Source: a virus
Strand: one strand, 5' to 3'
DNA length: 64,000 nt
Virus record (IMG/VR): IMGVR_UViG_3300031669_004775
Coordinates: 19,346 to 83,345 of that record
The notes below the pieces were generated by a model. That model ran no database searches, was not told the origin of the DNA, and saw only the letters and a program-made list of their open reading frames with translations. Positions 19,333 through 45,605 of the stretch are shown here, one piece after another. Made by a program: the position numbers and the translations under genes. The stretch's first letter is position 1. Each line of letters starts with the position of its first letter.

Positions 19333-20620
19333 TATAATCCTCCAATACATATGGAACTATTTGTTTTAAAATTTCATTTAATTCTTTTATTTTGATATTT
19401 AATTGAGATGTATCCGTATCCAATGTTAATAATTTGTTTATTTTATATTTATTAATTAATTCTTTAGTAACTTGCTTAGAAACATTTGTGCTTTTTTCAA
19501 TTACATTTAATATTTCTTCTTGTGATAACTTATGATAAATTCCACTTGCAATTATTGGTCTAATTATCTGTAATGCTTTATACTCTGTAATAATTTGATC
19601 TATCTTTTTTATTTCCTCATTGATCATTTTTTCTGTCGTTTGACAGTAAGAAGAATAAGTATCTAATAGCATTTTATCAATTGATTTATGGATTACATTT
19701 TGATCTGTATTGACAGTTATTGTTTCAAATGATATTGATCCTTTAATTGCCTCTTTTAAATCTAATACAAACCTCCGATAAATTGCATCTCTATTTCTTT
19801 CTCTTAAAATTTGAAATACAATTTGTGTAGTTGATACTGACAGATCTGTAAATCCAACCTCACCACTTTCAAAATGTTTTGATAATTTATTAAGAATTGT
19901 TTCAAACCTTTTACCAGGTGGCCAAGATTGTAATATTACTTTATTAGTTCTTACATCTTCTTTAACTATTCCTGTTACTTCAATTTTTGCTTTTCCAATA
20001 GTTAATAACTCTTCCAAAACCTTATTATCTGATAATATTTTACAGTCTGTAATTGGTGCTATTGTGGGTTTTGTTTTTCGTTGTTCTAATAACCACAATA
20101 ATCTTTTATATAAATCTTTCACTTCAAAACAGGGAATGAATGTTTTAAATCCAAAACCTATTCCCTGTGTATATTCCCTACCTATTAAACATATCGGAAA
20201 CATGGTTGGAAGATAAGATGGTTCTTTATCATCAAGTTCTGTCTGAACCCATGGAACATAGTTGATCATCTTGAATGCCAGATTTAATGTATAGTCATTA
20301 ATTCTGCATTCTGTATATCTTGGAGCAGCTGGTCCAACAATTTCAATTCCGACATTGCTTCCGAAATTTCCTTGTCCTGTTAAAAACCCCTGCTTAACTA
20401 ATTGAACTATTGTTCCATAACATTCTCCATGTGGATGATAATGACCACAGGTATAACTATCGACTTGTCTGCATTTAGCAAATTTAGTTTTTGCAATCTT
20501 AAATGCTGATAATAAAACTCTTCTCTCAACTGGTTTTAATCCATCAAGATCAAGCGGAAAGTTTCTATAATTTGAATAAGTCCCGTATTCCTTGTAAAGG
20601 TTTGGAAGGCGTTGGTCCAT
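19313..20620 (-). CDS. type II DNA topoisomerase subunit A-like, T4 gp52-like (435 aa)
   Basis: DNA cleavage and rejoining subunit. GLKPVERRVLLSAFK and GHYHPHGECYGTIVQLVKQ match the GyrA/ParC breakage domain. The catalytic tyrosine is in GPAAPRYTECR (GyrA has AAMRYTE). GIGFGFKTFIPCF follows as in GyrA. The length equals T4 gp52 (about 440 aa), so the GyrA C-terminal wrapping domain is absent and a T4-type topoisomerase is expected with the 599-aa ATPase subunit at 21683-23482. AGGAG precedes the ATG, which overlaps the upstream gene by 56 bases. Confidence 0.92.
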   Translation of the reverse strand: MDQRLPNLYKEYGTYSNYRNFPLDLDGLKPVERRVLLSAFKIAKTKFAKCRQVDSYTCGHYHPHGECYGTIVQLVKQGFLTGQGNFGSNVGIEIVGPAAPRYTECRINDYTLNLAFKMINYVPWVQTELDDKEPSYLPTMFPICLIGREYTQGIGFGFKTFIPCFEVKDLYKRLLWLLEQRKTKPTIAPITDCKILSDNKVLEELLTIGKAKIEVTGIVKEDVRTNKVILQSWPPGKRFETILNKLSKHFESGEVGFTDLSVSTTQIVFQILRERNRDAIYRRFVLDLKEAIKGSISFETITVNTDQNVIHKSIDKMLLDTYSSYCQTTEKMINEEIKKIDQIITEYKALQIIRPIIASGIYHKLSQEEILNVIEKSTNVSKQVTKELINKYKINKLLTLDTDTSQLNIKIKELNEILKQIVPYVLEDYNGFIRS

Positions 20621-28054: not shown

Positions 28055-29023
28055 TTAGAGAACCAGTGAAAGATATATAGGTTTTTTATCTTGAGTTATA
28101 AGATCCCCACCACCTGAATCTGTTTCTATTAATATAGTTTCAAAATTCTCAATTTTATTTAATATTGAGGCATTTTTTATTTTAATATTATCTATTATTT
28201 GTAAAATATCTTTTCTAATATCATGTAAAAAATTATCAACAATTAGTTCTAGATGTTCCACCTTATCACCCTTCTTAAATTTTGGTAGTTTAAGAGATGA
28301 ATTAATTTTGCCAAGTTTTTTAAGTCTCAATAACTCGGCGCCGTAACATCCTCGAATTAATAACTTCCAATAACTTTCCCAATGTTGAACACTTGGCATA
28401 ATTTCTATTCCAACAACTTTGTCTTTAAATAATATGACAGCTCCAATCTGATTAGATACTGGTTCAAAGGAAGCAGAAAACTCTTCAAGAGATTCCTTTA
28501 TTTGAGGATTATCATAGAAATATCTTAAATGTGACTGCATTATTGATTTAGAAACTCCTGTGCCAGCTAACCATTTTGAAATGTCTGGCCATAATTTATC
28601 ATATCTATTCTTGTCTCTCATTTTTAATGGTAAGAGATTTTTACGAAGCTCAATTGGTAAGATATCATAATCATTACCTTTATCTTGTAGATATCCTCCC
28701 TGACCTGATTCAATACAGCATGCATTAGTGAATTTTGTTGTTTTATTTGCTGTAATTATTCCTGAACCTGCCATTGCATGATCTTGAGCATTAAATCCTC
28801 TAACCATTATGTTTGTAGGAATAATTCCGGATAGTTCCTTATCTGTATTTTCATATACCATGGAACCATAACTATCCGTTCGTTTGAATTTTAATGAAAG
28901 TGGTTCTGCTACATTACCTAGATTTTCACCAATGAGAGGCACCACTGTCATTTCATCTACACCCTGAATACTTCCAGCTCCAATATCTTCATCTGAAAAT
29001 TTTAATATTCTAAAAATTGACAT
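28055..29023 (-). CDS. ARPP-1-like protein (322 aa)
   Basis: The N-terminal part (VVPLIGENLGNVAEPLSLKF, later IPTNIMVRGFNAQDHAMAG...GIITANKTTKFTNACCIESGQGGYL) recalls the ARPP-1 domain (ADP-ribosylglycohydrolase and rhodanese-phosphatase-associated protein). In that domain a stretch ending in a metal- or ligand-binding C-x-E is followed by G-x-Y/W. Near the end is TDSGGGDL. ARPP-1 proteins have no proven activity but occur with RNA- and nucleotide-processing genes. It overlaps nothing and follows the Ro-like vWA gene by nine bases, suggesting a common function. Confidence 0.5.
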   Translation of the reverse strand: MSIFRILKFSDEDIGAGSIQGVDEMTVVPLIGENLGNVAEPLSLKFKRTDSYGSMVYENTDKELSGIIPTNIMVRGFNAQDHAMAGSGIITANKTTKFTNACCIESGQGGYLQDKGNDYDILPIELRKNLLPLKMRDKNRYDKLWPDISKWLAGTGVSKSIMQSHLRYFYDNPQIKESLEEFSASFEPVSNQIGAVILFKDKVVGIEIMPSVQHWESYWKLLIRGCYGAELLRLKKLGKINSSLKLPKFKKGDKVEHLELIVDNFLHDIRKDILQIIDNIKIKNASILNKIENFETILIETDSGGGDLITQDKKPIYLSLVL

Positions 29024-29032
29024 AAGTTCTCC

Positions 29033-30556
29033 TCATTGAATCAGACTTTTATATTTTGATATTAATAATTTTCTAACCATATCTTTATCTTCGATAAGTT
29101 TAGAAAAGATTATTTCAGTTTCAAGAAACTTATAATCTCCAACTGGAAATGGTCTAACATCCTCTGTTAATCTTATTGAGGTTCCTGTTAAGGATCCAGC
29201 TGAAAATACAGGATTGAGATGTGTTAATTTAAAATTATATCCTGTCTCCTTCAAATGCTTATATACGTGCCCGAACATCCCTTTAATAGAATTTTCATAA
29301 CCATCAGAAATAATAACTATATTTTCAACACCTTTTGAGACTGCTTTAATTAATGCTCTCCAGAGATCTGTATAATTCTTTGGTATTATAACTCCTGGAT
29401 TAATTGTTGAAAATTTAATTGCTTGTCCTCCAACATATATTATATCTTTTACATTGTCGAGGTTTGCAATAATGCACAGTCCAGTTAAAAATGGATGCAT
29501 TGGTCTTTCTTCACTTCCAAACATTGAATGAGAGGCATCCATAATAACTATACACTCTCCAATATCAAGTTTGATCATATTATCTGTAACATAATCCATT
29601 GCTTCTATTATTTTATCAACATCCTCTTCATCTTTAGTGTTGAGTTTAAAATATAGAAGCTTGAATAGATCATAGATATCTTGTTTTTTATAATTAATAT
29701 CTACTTTCTTTGCACCAGCTCGTTTTGCTGCTGCTATTCCTTGAATTTTATCTTTCTCTGATTTCTGGGTATCATTCTTTATATCAGATATGGGAATATC
29801 AAGTTTATATAAATTTCTCATTCCCATAACGGTTCTTTCTGGAAAACCTTTCATATGCTTTCTAAATTCAACAAGATTTCCAATTTTTGCTGCATCTTTG
29901 AGTTCATAATACTTTTGAATCATTGGAAAGAAAGTTCCGGAAGGAATAGGTTTATTGAATATATGGCATACAACTGGAAAAGAATGATTATTGTATCTGC
30001 CAATATTTTTTCTAAATATAGTATCACTATTGCTTCCATTTAAAATTTTATAGAGATCTTGCTTTCCAAGAGCATGTTTAATTAGTTTTTGAAGTTTAAT
30101 CTTATAATTTACAGCAAGATAATCAAGACTTTTATTATCTCGATTGAAGATGAACTCCAAAATAATTTTTCTGGTTTTTGAATTATTTATTTTTTTATGT
30201 CCTTCTTCCCCTGCCAACATTAATAGATTTTTCAATGCTCTTGGTGTTCTCTCTTTATAGAGATTATATCTAATAATCTCCTTTTCAAATTCTTCTGGTA
30301 ATCCATCTGTAATTGCTGGTAGATTATTCACATTCTTTATACTATTTGATAATAGGATGTGACTCATAGCTCCTTTAGAGAAACCAGTGCCATTTAATAA
30401 CATTACTAAAGAGAATAAGGTTCTGTCGTAATCTAATAATTGCATCCACATGTTTTTAACTGCTTGATATTGTTCATCCTTTTCTTCATAATAAGCTCCC
30501 TTCGGGGCGAATTGTAAAATTCCCGAATCAATGATTCCCAGTTCCCCTATTGGCAT
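29033..30556 (-). CDS. Ro60/TROVE-like protein with vWA domain (507 aa)
   Basis: The N-terminal 300 residues are all-helical with a HEAT-like rhythm and contain YNLYKERTPRALKNLL and NYKIKLQKLIKHALGKQDLYKIL, which recall the TROVE ring of Ro60/Rsr. The C-terminal 180 residues are a von Willebrand A fold with an intact MIDAS, VIMDASHSM (Asp340, Ser342, Ser344), a threonine in SLTGTS, and IVIISDGYENS. This order (TROVE then vWA) is that of Ro60, a ring protein that binds Y RNAs and defective RNAs. The intergenic array just upstream is full of Y-RNA-like hairpins, which supports the call. The match is by pattern, so another helical-vWA family is possible. Confidence 0.55.
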   Translation of the reverse strand: MPIGELGIIDSGILQFAPKGAYYEEKDEQYQAVKNMWMQLLDYDRTLFSLVMLLNGTGFSKGAMSHILLSNSIKNVNNLPAITDGLPEEFEKEIIRYNLYKERTPRALKNLLMLAGEEGHKKINNSKTRKIILEFIFNRDNKSLDYLAVNYKIKLQKLIKHALGKQDLYKILNGSNSDTIFRKNIGRYNNHSFPVVCHIFNKPIPSGTFFPMIQKYYELKDAAKIGNLVEFRKHMKGFPERTVMGMRNLYKLDIPISDIKNDTQKSEKDKIQGIAAAKRAGAKKVDINYKKQDIYDLFKLLYFKLNTKDEEDVDKIIEAMDYVTDNMIKLDIGECIVIMDASHSMFGSEERPMHPFLTGLCIIANLDNVKDIIYVGGQAIKFSTINPGVIIPKNYTDLWRALIKAVSKGVENIVIISDGYENSIKGMFGHVYKHLKETGYNFKLTHLNPVFSAGSLTGTSIRLTEDVRPFPVGDYKFLETEIIFSKLIEDKDMVRKLLISKYKSLIQ

Positions 30557-30653
30557 TTAGCTTCTCCTTTATTTTAGTTTTTAACAACCAACGTAAAGCA
30601 ATGATATCTAATATTTTTGGTTTAAGGAATTTCATTACTTTCCTTTCAAAAAA

Positions 30654-30710
30654 ATGGAGTTGAGTGTAATTGAAACTTCTCTGCGAGTTCTGAAATCACA
30701 CTCAGTCCAT
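30654..30710 (-). ncRNA. Y-RNA-like structured element 7 (57 nt)
   Basis: In minus-strand RNA the ends pair (ATGGA/TCCAT). A small internal loop follows, then a 9-bp helix TGAGTGTGA/TTACACTCA with one G-U pair. The 5' strand keeps the shared box as GACTGAGTGTGATTTCAGA. It is the last member of the array, about 100 bases before the Ro-like gene. Confidence 0.5.
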
Positions 30711-30716
30711 TAAAGA

Positions 30717-30792
30717 TTGTGAGGACAATATCAGTATAATTAACAATGATCCCCGAATGATATTGAAATTGTTATACCCAGTGTCCTCACAA
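30717..30792 (-). ncRNA. structured RNA element 6 (76 nt)
   Basis: The ends form a perfect 11-bp helix (TTGTGAGGACA/TGTCCTCACAA). The interior can pair GTATAA with TTATAC and carries CATTCGGGGATCATTG. It lacks the full shared box but keeps GGAC at the end of the terminal helix. It is separated by six bases from the elements on each side. Confidence 0.5.
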
Positions 30793-30798
30793 GATGTA

Positions 30799-30862
30799 TT
30801 CAAAAGAAGCATATGTAAGTCATTAACTCAATCGGTTCTGAAATTACATAAAGTCTTTTGAA
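30799..30862 (-). ncRNA. Y-RNA-like structured element 5 (64 nt)
   Basis: Terminal helix TTCAAAAG/CTTTTGAA (8 bp), internal loop with GACT, then a second helix TATGTAA/TTACATA (7 bp). The shared box reads exactly GACTTTATGTAATTTCAGA. The apical loop is short, so this is the minimal member of the family. Confidence 0.55.
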
Positions 30863-30870
30863 AAAGTAAA

Positions 30871-30951
30871 GATGAGAAGTATTATTAAAAATATGTAGAT
30901 AGTGAATACGCCAATTGTATTTTTTCTGAAACTACATAAAGTCTTCTCATC
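30871..30951 (-). ncRNA. Y-RNA-like structured element 4 (81 nt)
   Basis: Terminal helix GATGAGAAG/CTTCTCATC (9 bp), shared box GACTTTATGTAGTTTCAGA, second helix TATGTAG/CTACATA (7 bp; the A to G change in the box is matched by a C in the partner strand), and an apical hairpin AATAC-AATTGGC-GTATT. The compensatory change supports a real RNA fold. Confidence 0.6.
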
Positions 30952-30960
30952 TAAAATTGG

Positions 30961-31031
30961 TGGGGACAGAGAACTAATTTAATCCGGGCGGGCCAACGCT
31001 TGTATTAAGTTAATTCTCTTTATTGTCCCCA
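30961..31031 (-). ncRNA. structured RNA element 3 (71 nt)
   Basis: Terminal helix TGGGGACA/TGTCCCCA (8 bp), then a second long helix AGAGAATTAACTTAAT/ATTAAATTAGTTCTCT interrupted only by mismatch or wobble positions. It is capped by a G+C-rich loop. It lacks the shared box but keeps GGAC at the helix end and sits in line with the others. Confidence 0.5.
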
Positions 31032-31044
31032 AATAAAAATGATT

Positions 31045-31149
31045 CCAAGAAGTAATAGATGTAACTAAAATAGGGAATCGAACCCTCACGTCTCATTTCA
31101 AGTAAGATGCTGAACCAATCAGCTCTGAAATTACATAAAGTCTTCTTGG
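31045..31149 (-). ncRNA. Y-RNA-like element 2 with tRNA-like core (105 nt)
   Basis: Terminal helix CCAAGAAG/CTTCTTGG (8 bp), box GACTTTATGTAATTTCAGA, and acceptor-like helix TGTAATT/AGTTACA (7 bp). Inside are three hairpins in tRNA order: GCTGA-TTGGT-TCAGC (D-arm with GG), TCTTA-CTTGAAA-TGAGA (5-bp stem, 7-base loop, anticodon position TGA), and AGGG-TTCGATT-CCCT (T-arm with TTCGA). Extra bases before the 3' acceptor strand and the added terminal helix make a functional tRNA unlikely. Bacterial YrlA RNAs combine a Ro-binding stem with a tRNA-like module in the same way. Confidence 0.65.
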
Positions 31150-31184
31150 AAACTAAAAATACAAGTCAAATTTTTATTACACCT

Positions 31185-31198
31185 ATTAATATATATAG
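31185..31198 (-). promoter_or_regulatory. recurrent promoter-like motif CTATATATATTAAT (upstream of element 2)
   Basis: On the minus strand CTATATATATTAAT lies 36 bases before element 2. The following bases (GTGTAATAAAAATTTGACTTGTATTTTT) are conserved with those after the copy before element 1. Four identical 14-base copies occur in the window, all in gene-free DNA and in the same orientation as downstream genes or RNAs. Confidence 0.5.
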
Positions 31199-31219
31199 AT
31201 GTTTTTTCTTAAATGTTTT

Positions 31220-31314
31220 CTGGGAAGCAGAAGATGTAATTTAATGTCAGGGAATTTAATCCCCTTAATGGCACTGTAATTACACAGTTCTGAAATTATA
31301 TCAAGTCCTCCCAG
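31220..31314 (-). ncRNA. Y-RNA-like structured element 1 (95 nt)
   Basis: Terminal helix CTGGGAGG/GCTTCCCAG (8 bp with one G-U), box GACTTGATATAATTTCAGA, second helix TATAATTT/AAATTACA with one mismatch. A D-arm-like hairpin ACTGT-GTAATT-ACAGT and a T-arm-like hairpin AGGGG-ATTAAAT-TCCCT follow, with no anticodon arm. It is first in the array and has its own copy of the promoter-like motif. Confidence 0.55.
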
Positions 31315-31352
31315 AAATTGAAAAAAATAAGTCAAATCATATATTATCACTT

Positions 31353-31366
31353 ATTAATATATATAG
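31353..31366 (-). promoter_or_regulatory. recurrent promoter-like motif CTATATATATTAAT (upstream of element 1)
   Basis: Second exact copy, 39 bases upstream of RNA element 1. The 35 bases after it (GTGATAATATATGATTTGACTTATTTTTTT) resemble those after the copy at 31185-31198, so the promoter-like unit and its leader appear duplicated together with the RNA. Confidence 0.5.
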
Positions 31367-31385: not shown

Positions 31386-31643
31386 TTAGGTAGCATCAAC
31401 CATAACAGGTTTTCTAGCATTATCCAAATCTATAATAATATTATTTCCTTCAAATGAGTCAGTTGTATTTTTGATAAGTTGTTTTATATGAGTCGGCATG
31501 AACTGTTCAACTTGATACACCTGTAAACCACGTTTGAAGTTAAATGCTATACCATCATGGGTTTCGGATACTTCAACTAATTCAGATTTAGGTCCTGTTA
31601 TAACAACATTACCTTTCGTAATTTTAATTATAGGTTCTGCCAT
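31386..31643 (-). CDS. hypothetical protein (85 aa)
   Basis: A small beta-rich protein: MAEPIIKITKGNVVITGP, then VSETHDGIAFNFKRGLQVYQVEQFMP, a short helix IKQLIKNTTDSF, and IIIDLDNARKPVMVDAT. No cysteines, catalytic motif or membrane segment. The start has AGGAGAG upstream and the gene is preceded by an AGAACAAA motif 32 bases before the ATG, so it may be monocistronic. It is the last protein gene before the structured RNA array. Function unknown. Confidence 0.65.
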   Translation of the reverse strand: MAEPIIKITKGNVVITGPKSELVEVSETHDGIAFNFKRGLQVYQVEQFMPTHIKQLIKNTTDSFEGNNIIIDLDNARKPVMVDAT

Positions 31644-32855: not shown

Positions 32856-33705
32856 TATTGACTCCATCTGTACAAATTCTATTAGCTAAAGCTCCAGTTG
32901 AACATTCATCTTTATGACCTTTTGTATAATGACATTTCTCACAACAACTCCAAGCTAAATTAGGATCAAGCGCAAAAAATGGTTCTAATTTTTGTGATCT
33001 TTCGTGGTGAACATCTGTTGCTAAATCTTCACAATACTGACATTTATAATCATCTCTTTCAAGAACGAAATTTCTAAAAGTTTGATACTCTTGTGATGTA
33101 TATGGTATTTCATTATTTTTAAATGGATCAGAATGTAAATTAAATAATGGACATTCATTTTTACATTTTTGAGAACAATAGTAATAAGAGTTATCTAATC
33201 CGTGGTGTTCTACATTTCTTATTCTTTCATATAGTTGAATATTTGTTGGTGTAAACCAACCTCCCTGTTCTTTTGAATTTGAACAATTATGATTTTTACA
33301 ATGAACTTGAATTTCTTTTTCTTTTGGTTTATCTGGATTATATCTCATTTCTTCAATTTTTGAAAATAGCGTATATTTTTCTTTTAGCATTTTAATAGTT
33401 CTTTTTCTTTTTTTGGATGCTTCTATCAAAGCTTTTTTTAATTTCTTTCTATATTGAGGATTATTAAAAGTTGATGATTTATCTTTCCAAACTTTTTTAT
33501 TTGACTCACTATTTTTTAGTTTAGATTCTATAGTTTGTTCTCTTCCATACATTGGATTATTTTTTCCTGACTGTTTTATTTTATTTGTTTCTGAATTTCT
33601 TTTTCTTATTCCTGGACAAGAATTAAATTTAGGACTGCAACATTGTCTGTTATTAGATGTTTTATATTTTGCTTCTTGTCCACAACCATATTCACATAAG
33701 TTCAT
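32842..33705 (-). CDS. HNH homing-type endonuclease with NUMOD3-like motif (287 aa)
   Basis: N-terminal cysteine finger (CEYGCGQEA...CC...CPG), then KQSGKNNPMYGRE, the NUMOD3 DNA-binding signature of homing nucleases, followed by a lysine-rich helical region. The C-terminus is an HNH domain: ERDDYKCQYCEDLATDVHHER, then CCEKCHYTKGHK. Free-standing nucleases of this design invade intergenic spots in phages. It sits between beta and Nudix genes, and its ends duplicate a GGAG(G)TCAATAATGAA start context, consistent with insertion at a gene start. Its ATG overlaps the beta stop region. Confidence 0.85.
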   Translation of the reverse strand: MNLCEYGCGQEAKYKTSNNRQCCSPKFNSCPGIRKRNSETNKIKQSGKNNPMYGREQTIESKLKNSESNKKVWKDKSSTFNNPQYRKKLKKALIEASKKRKRTIKMLKEKYTLFSKIEEMRYNPDKPKEKEIQVHCKNHNCSNSKEQGGWFTPTNIQLYERIRNVEHHGLDNSYYYCSQKCKNECPLFNLHSDPFKNNEIPYTSQEYQTFRNFVLERDDYKCQYCEDLATDVHHERSQKLEPFFALDPNLAWSCCEKCHYTKGHKDECSTGALANRICTDGVNNECS

Positions 33706-36700
33706 TATTGACCTCCTAACATCAATGAAATAAAATATGCACTTAATAGATCTCTAGTTGGAGACATTTTTGTTTGCTTAAAATCTGTTGTTCCAGTTTG
33801 TATAATTTCTGATAACATTTCATTTTTAGATGCAAAATCATCAGACATAGGACCAAAAAATTCAGATAATACTGTTGGACAATTATAAGAAGCTAACGCC
33901 CATGTATCACCTTCACCCATTTTTTGACCACCCTCTTTTCTTTTTCCAGCAGTTGGTTGTCCTCCTTTTCCTGCTGTTGGTCCTGTTGATCTTGCATGTA
34001 ATTTAGCATCTGCGAGATGTTCTAATTTAGAAACATATTCATAACCAAAAGGAACTTCATTTTGCGTCAATGTATTATACTTTGGAAGTTTTAATTTATA
34101 TCCTGTTTTTAGTTTTAATAATTTTAATACTTCCGCTATACTTTTGTGATTAGGAGATTGAAATGGAGGAATAACTATTGGTATAAATTTATTCTTTTCA
34201 ACTTGACTTAACATTTCTTTATATTTTCCATCACTCATTTTAGTTAAGGAAGCAATTAATGATGTGCTAATTTTCTTATCTTTTGTATTATCAAGTTTTG
34301 TTATTACAGATTTCATCAATGCAATTCCTTGTGGTCTGGTCAACTTTATCATTCTCTTTGCTACTTCTTTAGAAATAAGACCACAGTATAATTCGTATAT
34401 TTGCCCCATATTCATTCGACCTGTAACTCCAAGAGGATTCATAATTATATCAACTGTTTCACCCCAAGGTGTTCTTGGCATTAAATTATCTTTTTCAATT
34501 AATGAAATAATTCCTTTATTTCCATATCTGTTACAGAGTTTATCACCCACTCTAATTTTCAATTCTTGTTCAACTTTAAATACAATTAATATTCCTTTAA
34601 TTGAAATTGATCTATCTGTATATTTATCTTTATCAGGTTTTTTATGTCTTAAGTTAGTTCTTTTAACTAACTTTTTAATAGAAGGAAAATCATCTATATC
34701 AAGATTAGAGAATACTTCAATATCAACAACTTGTCCTCCTGGACTTTTTATAACAATTTGACCTTCATATACATCAACTCCTTCTTCTTCCTGTTCTTGA
34801 TAACCCAGTAGTTCTTCAATATCTCCTGCTGTTTTTATTAATAAAGGTTCACCTTTTTTAGTATAAGCTCCCATTTCTATAATATGTAAAATTCTATCTT
34901 TATGATCAATTTTTACTTCAATATCAACTCCATGTAAGGAAGTTAATTTATCATCATTTGCTAATCTTTCATTTATTACAAGACCATCTTCAAAATTATA
35001 TCCTTCATATGGCATATAGCATGTTGCAAGATTTCTTCCTAATGATATAGTTCCTCCAGATATACAAGCTCCTTCTGCAATTACTTGCTTATCTTTAACA
35101 GATTGACCAACAGTCACAGTTGGTCTAAATGTGCTCAATGTATTTTTTCCAGATCCAGATTTTAGTTGACCTGGTGTAATATCAACTTTCTTTTTAGAAT
35201 TTTCTTTACAACTTATTTCAATAAAGTCATTTGTAATACTTGATACTTTTCCAGCACATGGAGATCTCTTAATAAAGCTATCAGATAGAACATTGGAAAG
35301 TAATGACTCATATCCAGTTTGAACAATAGGAGGTTCAGGATTTTTCAAGGGCAGCATTTGTTTTCCTTGATTTCCTGCCATGATAAGTCTGGCACCTTCA
35401 TTGTTTTCAATAAATGGAACCATTGAAAGAGTCGTTGATAGTATTCCAGATCCTTCATCATTTTTTAAATCTTTAATTCCAAAAAGTCCTCTTGAAGATG
35501 TTAAATATGCATCAACTGTTAGTTGTTGGGTTATACCAATATTACCACCCTCTGCTGTATCAACTGGATCAATATTTCCAAAATATGATCTATGAACATT
35601 TCGAGCTTCAAGATTTAATCCCTCCTTATCAGGAACTCCACCAACAGTTTTTCCAACTGGAGAAATTTTTGTAATGGTTGCCATTTCTTCAACTGGATTT
35701 GCATATTCCATATTTTGAACAATCTCTAAATTAGTAAATTGACCTAATATAGAACCAGGTGGAAAATTAAATTTTGCATCTTTATTTCCTGATAGATATT
35801 GTTCTTTATATTCAGTATATGATTTAAGAAATTGTTTTTGTGCTAAATGAACTAGAATTTCTGAATTTCTAATTCTTTGATATTGAATATCATTTCTTTC
35901 TTGAACATAACCTTCAACAGCTTTAGATGCCATATAGTGCATAATATCTTCTAGTTTATATGGTAATAATTGATTGATTAAAACTTGTTTTGAAACTGGA
36001 TCAACAATGTATTCAATATTATTATTTATCAAATATGTTGAGTCAACCCTTCCAGTCATTTGAATAATTAAATCTATGAAATAATCTTTTGATAAAAATT
36101 CTTTATCATTTTTATATTGACTGATGTTACTATGAGTAAATGATGTTACCATTTCTCGTTTTAAATCAGTATCTAAACCTTCAAATATCATATATGAGGA
36201 CGGAACCTGTGTAAAAACTACATCTTTTTCAGGTCTATCTTGAACAATTTTATATTTTATTCCTACTCTTTTGACTGTTTCTTCAAATCCAAAACTATAT
36301 GATAACAAGATCATCAATGGGAGGCGGAATGAACCCATGTATGCTTCTAGATACGACAATCTCTTGGTCTTCCTACTATAGATATGGAATTTTGAATATG
36401 AACTCTCAAATTTAGAATCATAAGGTTTAGGAAAGCTAATAGGGGTCAACACTATTTGATTTATTAAACATTTACGTTGACCATTTACTCTAAAAGTTCC
36501 AGAGTTAGGATCAATCTCAGGAATTTCAAATTCAATTATTTGCTCATTTCCTGCAGCATCTGTTACGCTTATAGATACAATTGCAACGTCTGATTTTTTA
36601 AGTTCTCCAGGTCTTGATATTTTACTAGTAACCTTAATTGAATTGAATTTAATAGGAACATTTCCTTTTTGTAAAACTTTAAAAGCACTGGACATATCTT

Positions 36701-37769
36701 TTTTCAAATTTGTTTCAAAGTCGATTCTTCTTTTATCAAATATATGCTCTGGTGTTTTATTTTGGACTGCTTTACCAACATTCATTCCTTGAATAATATA
36801 CGACTCACTAAGACTAACAGCTTTTTCACCTGTTAATAAATCATCTCTATATAAATTACTTATCTTTTGAACTGCAGTTTTGATGTTTGAGTCAGGTATA
36901 GATTTTGCAAGTCTTTGAGATTTTGAATAGTTTCCTGTAACTTTATATAAGATAGAAGCTATTGTCAATCTATCTTTTTCTGTTTTATCAAGTTCATCAT
37001 TAGAAACTTTCTCAAGATCTTTATCATTCTTATTTAGATAGTTTTGAATTGCTGTTTTAATTTTAGAATCTTTCTCATCAAATGAGTTGGTTGCTGATTC
37101 AACATCTTGTTCTTTCTCTTCATCTGAATCAACCATTTTAATTTTTCTTATATATTGAGTAACTCTTGCAAATTTATAGTTTCTATCTTTAACTAATAGT
37201 CTATATCTAGTTGATGTCTCACCGACCAATCCTAAAAGCATATGATCAAATGAAATTTCATTTTCTTTCATGTTTCTTAATATAGGAAATATTTTTCTAT
37301 TTATAAACGAATTTATTGGTTTATTAATATCAACAGTGTAAATTAGAACCTTTTGATAATTATTAGGAAGGGAATTGAATGATTTGTAAAAAAAGTTATT
37401 AAGAAGAAATCCTGCTCTTTGTCTATATGTTGTTGGTTTATATGTTTGATCTATTAATGAAACATACTGACTTGTATCAAATATAATATTTGAGTTTGGA
37501 GGATATGCTTGATTTGATTGAAATGGAATTAAACCAAATGATTTATAAATCTTTCTTTGATCTCCTGTTAATCGTGAAACAGGAATTTTTGTTATCGGAA
37601 CGACTACATATTTAGAATCTATTCTCATTAGATTCATCTTTGGATAGTCATTATATAGAGTTGAATTCTCGGAGAAATAAAATAATGCAAATGGTTTATC
37701 TTTTTCTTTTAAGAAACGAACTCCATCTACTACTCTTGTATATTGTGTTAGTAATTGAAATTTAATCAT
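33705..37769 (-). CDS. RNA polymerase beta-like subunit (paralogue B, 1354 aa)
   Basis: Full-length second-largest RNA polymerase subunit. RpoB hallmarks in order: RNVHRSYFGNIDPVDTAEGG (RpoB RDVHPTHYGRVCPIETPEG), GYNFEDGLVINERL, KIRVGDKLCNRYGNKGIIS, DIIMNPLGVTGRMNMGQI, and MGEGDTWALASYNCPTVLSEF. The length is like E. coli RpoB (1342 aa), unlike the split beta subunits of phiKZ-group phages. The N-terminal 400 residues are lineage-specific (acidic/lysine-rich insert about 210-270). It pairs with the beta' at 38794-41817, which lies upstream in the same transcript. Confidence 0.94.
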   Translation of the reverse strand: MIKFQLLTQYTRVVDGVRFLKEKDKPFALFYFSENSTLYNDYPKMNLMRIDSKYVVVPITKIPVSRLTGDQRKIYKSFGLIPFQSNQAYPPNSNIIFDTSQYVSLIDQTYKPTTYRQRAGFLLNNFFYKSFNSLPNNYQKVLIYTVDINKPINSFINRKIFPILRNMKENEISFDHMLLGLVGETSTRYRLLVKDRNYKFARVTQYIRKIKMVDSDEEKEQDVESATNSFDEKDSKIKTAIQNYLNKNDKDLEKVSNDELDKTEKDRLTIASILYKVTGNYSKSQRLAKSIPDSNIKTAVQKISNLYRDDLLTGEKAVSLSESYIIQGMNVGKAVQNKTPEHIFDKRRIDFETNLKKDMSSAFKVLQKGNVPIKFNSIKVTSKISRPGELKKSDVAIVSISVTDAAGNEQIIEFEIPEIDPNSGTFRVNGQRKCLINQIVLTPISFPKPYDSKFESSYSKFHIYSRKTKRLSYLEAYMGSFRLPLMILLSYSFGFEETVKRVGIKYKIVQDRPEKDVVFTQVPSSYMIFEGLDTDLKREMVTSFTHSNISQYKNDKEFLSKDYFIDLIIQMTGRVDSTYLINNNIEYIVDPVSKQVLINQLLPYKLEDIMHYMASKAVEGYVQERNDIQYQRIRNSEILVHLAQKQFLKSYTEYKEQYLSGNKDAKFNFPPGSILGQFTNLEIVQNMEYANPVEEMATITKISPVGKTVGGVPDKEGLNLEARNVHRSYFGNIDPVDTAEGGNIGITQQLTVDAYLTSSRGLFGIKDLKNDEGSGILSTTLSMVPFIENNEGARLIMAGNQGKQMLPLKNPEPPIVQTGYESLLSNVLSDSFIKRSPCAGKVSSITNDFIEISCKENSKKKVDITPGQLKSGSGKNTLSTFRPTVTVGQSVKDKQVIAEGACISGGTISLGRNLATCYMPYEGYNFEDGLVINERLANDDKLTSLHGVDIEVKIDHKDRILHIIEMGAYTKKGEPLLIKTAGDIEELLGYQEQEEEGVDVYEGQIVIKSPGGQVVDIEVFSNLDIDDFPSIKKLVKRTNLRHKKPDKDKYTDRSISIKGILIVFKVEQELKIRVGDKLCNRYGNKGIISLIEKDNLMPRTPWGETVDIIMNPLGVTGRMNMGQIYELYCGLISKEVAKRMIKLTRPQGIALMKSVITKLDNTKDKKISTSLIASLTKMSDGKYKEMLSQVEKNKFIPIVIPPFQSPNHKSIAEVLKLLKLKTGYKLKLPKYNTLTQNEVPFGYEYVSKLEHLADAKLHARSTGPTAGKGGQPTAGKRKEGGQKMGEGDTWALASYNCPTVLSEFFGPMSDDFASKNEMLSEIIQTGTTDFKQTKMSPTRDLLSAYFISLMLGGQ
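37737..37769 (-). repeat. first 11 codons of beta, duplicated at 38283-38315
   Basis: The start of beta (MIKFQLLTQYT) occurs again at 38283-38315 with one base difference in 31 compared. The second copy is the beginning of the 35-codon fusion frame. Together with the duplicated end of beta' this marks a recombination junction. Confidence 0.85.
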
Positions 37770-45511: not shown

Positions 45512-45591
45512 ACTGAAATTCAAAAATTAGTTCTCCTTTCATATGATATCGGAATAATCAAAAAAATAGTTATAAATCTTCCTTTTCAATT

Positions 45592-45605
45592 ATTAATATA
45601 TATAG
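45592..45605 (-). promoter_or_regulatory. recurrent promoter-like motif CTATATATATTAAT before the 45-kb RNA pair
   Basis: Fourth exact copy of the motif, between the amidase stop (45626) and the structured elements at 45221-45511. It again precedes RNA-like elements, as at 31 kb. Confidence 0.5.

Follow-up and report, generated by a model that had tools for sequence, protein, structure and literature searches.

A probable Y-RNA-type tRNA mimic encoded ahead of a divergent Ro60-like gene in a phage

The window, a stretch of 64,000 nucleotides of viral DNA (IMG/VR record IMGVR_UViG_3300031669_004775, positions 19,346 to 83,345), carries on its minus strand a noncoding RNA, here named element 2, that is probably of Y-RNA type and part of a divergent Ro60-like ribonucleoprotein encoded by the phage. 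Element 2 has a conserved fold in which D-, anticodon- and T-arm-like hairpins follow one another in tRNA order on top of two helices, it contains a module with ACU opposite YUA, and it is linked to a pair of genes encoding a 507-aa Ro60-like protein and an ARPP-1 protein. As in Y RNAs in the wide sense, a terminal stem is formed from both RNA ends, a conserved internal loop provides a candidate protein site and, given the Ro60-like assignment, the RNA is encoded beside a Ro60-type gene. We assign the Y-RNA-type class because the two-helix ACU/YUA module lies upstream of a gene of the Ro60-like family in six loci. On this reading the array to which element 2 belongs is a previously undescribed variant of the Ro60-Y RNA systems.

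The hairpins reported in an initial annotation, namely D-arm, anticodon arm (UGA) and T-arm, are all present; the strand, left unstated there, is the minus strand, the RNA running from 31151 to 31043. Two stacked helices likewise exist but are longer than proposed, the outer one with 10 bp rather than 8 (UUCCAAGAAG paired with CUUCUUGGAA) and the inner one with 8 bp rather than 7 (AUGUAAUU paired with AGUUACAU). Between them lies an asymmetric internal loop, 5' ACUUU and 3' CUAUUA. A 5' linker of five unpaired nucleotides (UCAGA) leads from the inner helix to the D-arm (GCUGA/UCAGC, with a loop UUGGU that contains GG), which is followed by the anticodon arm (UCUUA-CUUGAAA-UGAGA, anticodon UGA), a variable loop of 4 nucleotides (CGUG) and the T-arm (AGGG-UUCGAUU-CCCU, T-loop UUCGAUU). 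The extra bases that had been noticed before the 3' acceptor-like strand are the linker AUUUU, five unpaired nucleotides that connect the T-arm to the inner 3' strand, and they have their match in the five on the 5' side. The minimum-energy fold consists of exactly these five helices (-26.7 kcal/mol); with a z of -2.4 and 2 of 200 shuffles equally good, fold energy taken alone is modest evidence, and the plus strand folds as well (z -3.2). That element 2 stands beyond chance rests on comparison, that is, on its score with the Rfam tRNA model, on its counterparts in a related phage, and on a 5' motif confined to the array.

The related phage contig (L003; loci and records bear L numbers here) encodes a Ro60-like protein 68% identical to the 507-aa protein of the window and has the array at the corresponding position, with the gene order unchanged and at least six motif copies. 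Exact-motif scans of IMG/VR matched the records of L003 and L004 only; L004 is identical to L003 over the 1.5 kb compared and is not counted as independent. Two L003 elements, M1 and M2, are tRNA-like in the same arm order as element 2. Across the three sequences 97.8% of cells are paired and five pairs are changed on both sides, a result equalled in 3 of 500 shuffles, and sliding the partner strand destroys the pairing. This covariation, drawn from three sequences, is supportive, not overwhelming.

Could element 2 be a decayed or unusual phage tRNA-Ser-UGA gene lodged inside a flanking inverted repeat, its likeness to Y RNAs being incidental? The Rfam tRNA model does cover all three arms (positions 9-63) with 25.0 bits (E 0.014 in 1.2 kb, below the gathering score of 29), one L003 counterpart barely exceeds that gathering score with 29.9 bits, and jumbo phages carry many tRNAs. 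However, ARAGORN calls no tRNA in the window, and element 2 encodes no CCA and has no separate acceptor stem. A functional tRNA has a 7-bp acceptor, 2 nucleotides to the D-arm, a direct join to the T-arm and CCA; element 2 departs from this arrangement and carries five unpaired bases on each side of its arms. Its variable loop is short, whereas tRNA-Ser has a long variable arm; the L003 counterparts read AUA and AUU in place of UGA; compensating changes preserve the stem pairs; and sister elements that lack the tRNA part retain the same stem and motif. We therefore regard a decayed tRNA as quite unlikely. The earlier view that the element is not a normal tRNA is borne out by the negative ARAGORN result and the missing CCA end, and its description as a Y-RNA-type tRNA mimic agrees with the negative tRNA callers, the terminal stem with its conserved internal loop, and the position upstream of the Ro60-like gene on the same strand.

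The module that ties element 2 to its relatives consists of an outer helix, ACU opposite YUA, an inner helix, and then UUNCAG. In the 2.5 kb ahead of Ro60-like genes we find 15 ACU/YUA modules in six loci (the window, L001, L003, L005, L008 and L018), against a mean of 0.05 and a maximum of 2 in shuffles, and none within 4 kb after the start of the Ro60-like gene. ACU/YUA ranks first among 2048 trinucleotide combinations; the second-ranked pair is, judging by its register, the same elements displaced by one base. Compensating changes keep the outer helix over 18 elements, a comparison in which ACU was the selection criterion and elements 1, 4, 5 and 7 of the window, which deviate at YUA, were added by hand. 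Covariation was counted on hand-anchored arms here, and on the three close sequences above, because MAFFT misaligned the stems across distant elements. None of the seven canonical phage Ro60 loci scanned contains the module, which therefore seems specific to the divergent Ro60-like family.

Element 2 is one of at least five elements that share the 5' motif GACUNUAUGURRUUYCAGA (elements 1, 2, 4, 5 and 7). With up to three mismatches the window has five copies against 0.73 expected, all on the minus strand between 30689 and 31307, and with up to two mismatches the whole 83-kb record still yields these five copies and none besides. Hairpins resembling those of tRNA are confined to elements 1 and 2, those of element 1 being two apical hairpins at the places of the D-arm and T-arm, without an anticodon arm. 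Element 6 has a counterpart in L003 with an apical UUCGGGG, and the counterpart of element 7 lies at L003 5839-5897 (both by eye); for element 3 no counterpart was seen in L003. Low-scoring Rfam matches in the array (PsrR1, 6S-Flavo, snoRNA, psRNA6) fall far under their cut-offs and were discarded as chance matches.

The array sits directly upstream of the 507-aa open reading frame (ORF) on the same strand, within its 830-nucleotide leader. This arrangement, together with the U run at the end of element 7, which could thereby double as a terminator, would also suit cis-acting hairpins in a long Ro60-like mRNA leader (an attenuator, RNase sites or a terminator) rather than separate RNAs. We consider such a leader very improbable, since several nearly identical modules keep their internal-loop bases conserved, and since in other phages the modules stand 1-4 kb ahead of the gene, in part with other genes in between, and also surround tRNA sequences. 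The string CTATATATATTAATA, which precedes element 2, occurs identically ahead of element 1 (31352-31366) and ahead of the L003 array and is a possible phage promoter, its count by itself being not significant (13 of 100 shuffles have as many). A third exact copy in the window lies at 45591-45605 on the minus strand.

The 507-aa protein, with a TROVE-like helical part and a vWA domain, is very probably Ro60-like, a distant relative of the human RNA-binding protein Ro60, as judged from profile comparison. Homologues occur in a 462-kb phage, in IMG/VR phage contigs and in the genomes of four bacteria, Pseudohongiella and Rhodopirellula among them. The reference profile was built from seven annotated phage Ro60 proteins (L011-L017), two of which, L011 and L016, were tested and match both Pfam TROVE (PF05731) and vWA_Ro60; the 507-aa protein has no above-cut-off match to either, and a TROVE search of the phage records gave none. 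Compared with this reference, the phage-only family profile reached 63% (E 6.9e-5), and with the four bacterial members added the hhalign probability was 94.4% (E 8.5e-8, both E-values applying to single comparisons) over 283 columns across both domains. The profile-profile score was 67.7, against a maximum of 27.5 among 60 column-shuffled controls. The C-terminal halves compared with each other scored 38.1 and the N-terminal halves 31.4 (control maximum 22.3), the latter matching the conserved VKYRQR...H region of Ro60. In every relative found, an ARPP-1 or ARPP-2 gene comes next after the Ro60-like gene (by ORF starts; eight were checked with Pfam). This two-gene module is conserved in phages and bacteria; the part of the published work on ARPP considered here (PMC9503650) gives other gene neighbours and leaves a pairing with a Ro60-like gene unmentioned.

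Several observations weigh against a Y RNA with a Ro60-like partner. The ACU/YUA module was first spotted by eye in the very loci that were then scanned, only element 2 of the window's array passes the strict scan, and the ACU/YUA form was not found in L009, L010 or three bacterial loci. For the 507-aa protein, sequence searches of Pfam, NCBIfam, PHROGs, PADLOC and the PDB returned nothing meaningful, the helical half on its own is a weak match to Ro60, and a single-sequence structure prediction, which might have displayed the Ro60 ring of helical repeats closed by a vWA domain, was too poor for use (pLDDT 38.5).

How does element 2 relate to YrlA, whose architecture the initial annotation had ascribed to it? 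Published work likens YrlA to the D, T and acceptor arms of tRNA (PMC8394870) and describes its superposition on tRNA as circularly permuted (PMC11472068). Element 2 shares with YrlA (RF02553; Salmonella YrlA, PDB 6CU1) the terminal stem formed from both RNA ends, a tRNA-like module, the T-loop UUCGA, GG in the D-arm, and a gene beside a Ro60-type gene. The Rfam YrlA model, however, has the order stem, T-arm, closed acceptor hairpin, D-arm, stem, a permuted arrangement, whereas element 2 has D-, anticodon and T-arm with no acceptor, and the conserved internal loops differ. The model gave no match at E<=1 in the window's 83-kb record or in the L003 record. A plain YrlA was accordingly tested and dropped, and from the arm order and the missing model match we conclude that element 2 belongs with the Y-type RNAs but has a topology other than that of YrlA; the earlier interpretation, right in kind and wrong in topology, is partly supported.

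Permuted elements near Ro60-like genes do give YrlA matches, all below the Rfam gathering score of 69: 37.3 and 34.3 bits in L009, 40.4 in L018 and 26.6 in L005. Independent support comes from the Pseudohongiella genome (6.6 Mb), whose best match (40.4 bits, E 4.6e-7) is placed some 230 bp ahead of its Ro60-like gene and scores at a level comparable to that of matches beside true Ro60 genes in the mycobacteriophages Farewell (36.6 bits) and Shifa (34.3 bits). Since the same search gives below-cut-off matches in 13 of 14 control genomes, the weight rests on position and topology. YrlA-like permuted forms among relatives in other phages thus make the family resemblance real, the topology of element 2 being different.

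Other known systems offer partial parallels. In the Deinococcus radiodurans Rsr-Y RNA-PNPase complex (RYPER) and the Salmonella rsr-yrlBA-rtcBA operon a Ro60-type protein is likewise encoded with Y RNAs, but here RtcA and RtcB are not alongside, the partner gene is ARPP-1, the protein is far outside the TROVE model, and the RNAs form an array of at least five. Mycobacteriophages and streptophages also encode Ro60, as Ro-like RNA binding proteins (TROVE, vWA_Ro60) with YrlA-like matches nearby, whereas the window protein is recognisable through profile comparison only. A small subset of jumbo phages has a ROT/TROVE protein to which a role in RNA repair has been ascribed (PMC7824862).

The handle also recurs with tRNAs in distant jumbo phages and one bacterium. 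In L005, L008, L009 and L018 we find tRNAs circularly permuted on a Y-type stem, upstream of Ro60-like genes. Their order is T-arm, acceptor 3' strand, linker, acceptor 5' strand and D-arm, with a full anticodon arm in several; they have 6-7 acceptor pairs, linkers of 6-12 nucleotides and mostly an encoded CCA. Algal and archaeal circularly permuted tRNA genes have the same order, from the T-arm to the anticodon arm, but the halves here join at a Y-type module in place of a known splicing motif; this topology is unlike that of element 2. Rejoining the halves gives sequences that read as tRNA-Ser(UGA), Ile(GAU), Gln(UUG), Tyr(GUA) and others; ARAGORN recognizes a tRNA in about 33-52% of the joins, one anticodon being dominant, compared with 0-6% of controls. 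Nine further tRNA-like genes, in L001, L005, L008 and L010, are interrupted. All have acceptors with 7 of 7 Watson-Crick pairs and six have CCA; the inserts, about 50-60 nucleotides long, fall at position 8/9, within the D-loop or within the variable region, and eight of the nine contain a UUACAG-type module strand. Unspliced, none of the nine is called by ARAGORN. Deletion tests with ARAGORN are suggestive at best, the contrast being uneven and shuffled inserts sometimes scoring equally. Nine interrupted and six permuted tRNAs lie within 3 kb upstream of a Ro60-like gene, one interrupted tRNA was found elsewhere, and none in shuffles; canonical Ro60 phages have two permuted and none interrupted. 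Literature searches, covering only part of the work on Y RNAs, found no such permuted or interrupted arrangements described in phages.

These relatives bring up a caged pre-tRNA, in which the Y-type helices would be leader and trailer of a real tRNA that the particle releases or repairs upon cleavage of host tRNAs. In its favour, the module in L001 and L008 encloses tRNA-like sequences followed by CCA, and the CCA-bearing tRNAs of other relatives are permuted on or interrupted by the module. For element 2 it is nevertheless unlikely: lacking a separate acceptor stem and CCA, element 2 can yield no standard tRNA, and no RNA ligase was found in the 83-kb record, which is incomplete. More broadly, and doubtfully, the ACU/YUA Y module may serve jumbo phages and some bacteria as a general handle for permuting, interrupting or wrapping tRNAs, the Ro60-like and ARPP pair reassembling or releasing them during infection (tRNA concealment and maturation); the elements of the window would then be a reduced branch whose tRNA part is a pure mimic or lost.

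For element 2 as a Y-RNA-type RNA, we envisage, as the most economical reading, a phage Ro ribonucleoprotein in which the array is transcribed toward the Ro60-like gene and the outer helix, the internal loop and the inner helix with its UUNCAGA strand form a predicted handle for the Ro60-like, putatively ring-shaped protein, the exchangeable apical part determining partner and job. In element 2 and in M1 and M2 the apex would be a tRNA elbow, with a GG D-loop and a UUCGA T-loop, mimicking tRNA without the possibility of being charged. Such an elbow might attract tRNA-binding proteins, divert tRNA-cleaving defence nucleases as a decoy, or link the Ro60-like protein to a nuclease; in known systems Y RNA is reported to tether Rsr to PNPase, and YrlA has been suggested to inhibit an anticodon nuclease (PMC7790460). 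ARPP-1, a predicted ribose or ADP-ribose enzyme, would act on RNA ends or modified RNA in the particle. With low confidence, we take decoy or quality control during infection as the likeliest of these uses. A divergent Ro60-like family, missed by the Pfam and NCBIfam models that were scanned, would possess its own class of Y RNAs, with a handle able to carry a tRNA module in either the normal or a permuted order, which bears on the purpose of tRNA mimicry by Y RNAs; the CCA-bearing permuted and interrupted tRNAs of the relatives lead to a concrete prediction on how jumbo phages mature tRNAs.

Table 1. Coordinates of the elements, genes and tRNA-related features (window unless a locus is given)
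Feature	Position	Strand	Description
Element 1	31217..31317	-	Same outer-stem module (GACUUGAUAUAAUUUCAGA)
CTATATATATTAATA	31184..31198	-	Upstream of element 2
Element 2	31043..31151	-	Y-RNA-type (probable); D-, anticodon- (UGA) and T-arm-like hairpins in tRNA order
Element 3	30961..31031	-	Long GC-based hairpin without the shared motif; membership uncertain
Element 4	30870..30952	-	Same module (GACUUUAUGUAGUUUCAGA), non-tRNA-like apex
Element 5	30799..30862	-	Same module; apical loop short, non-tRNA-like
Element 6	30717..30792	-	Long-stem hairpin of different sequence; membership uncertain
Element 7	30653..30711	-	Short; 5' motif with 2 mismatches; stem, then U run
507-aa protein	29033..30556	-	Divergent, very probably Ro60-like; TROVE-like helical part and vWA (DxSxS, ISDGYEN)
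322-aa ARPP-1 protein	28055..29023	-	PF20208, E 2.5e-20; directly after the Ro60-like gene
Ro60-like/ARPP module sites	L001 9446-10483; L003 7524-8495; L018 5819-6823; L020 5732-6946; L021 5998-7275; others		
Permuted tRNA genes	L009 3780-4815; L005 4228-4370; L008 4079-4232, 4430-4510; L018 3822-3957		
Interrupted tRNAs	L001 4814-4950, 5206-5350; L005 4379-4524, 5673-5811; L008 4563-4687, 4882-5009, 5698-5834; L010 3551-3689, 3814-3952		
tRNA-Asp pairs	L015 1506-1583, 2295-2366; L016 1276-1352, 1989-2060; L017 483-557, 1409-1480		Upstream of canonical Ro60

Some further features accompany these loci. Three Streptomyces phages with canonical Ro60 (L015, L016 and L017) have two annotated tRNA-Asp genes upstream of Ro60, the annotated anticodon being GUC for both genes of L015 and of L016. 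Directly upstream of the window's array lies an 85-aa ORF (31386-31643, minus strand) that is strongly conserved in L003 and has no family match above cut-off. A 1354-aa ORF (33705-37769, minus strand) resembles, by eye, an RNA polymerase beta subunit, which suggests that the 83-kb record is a piece of a large phage.
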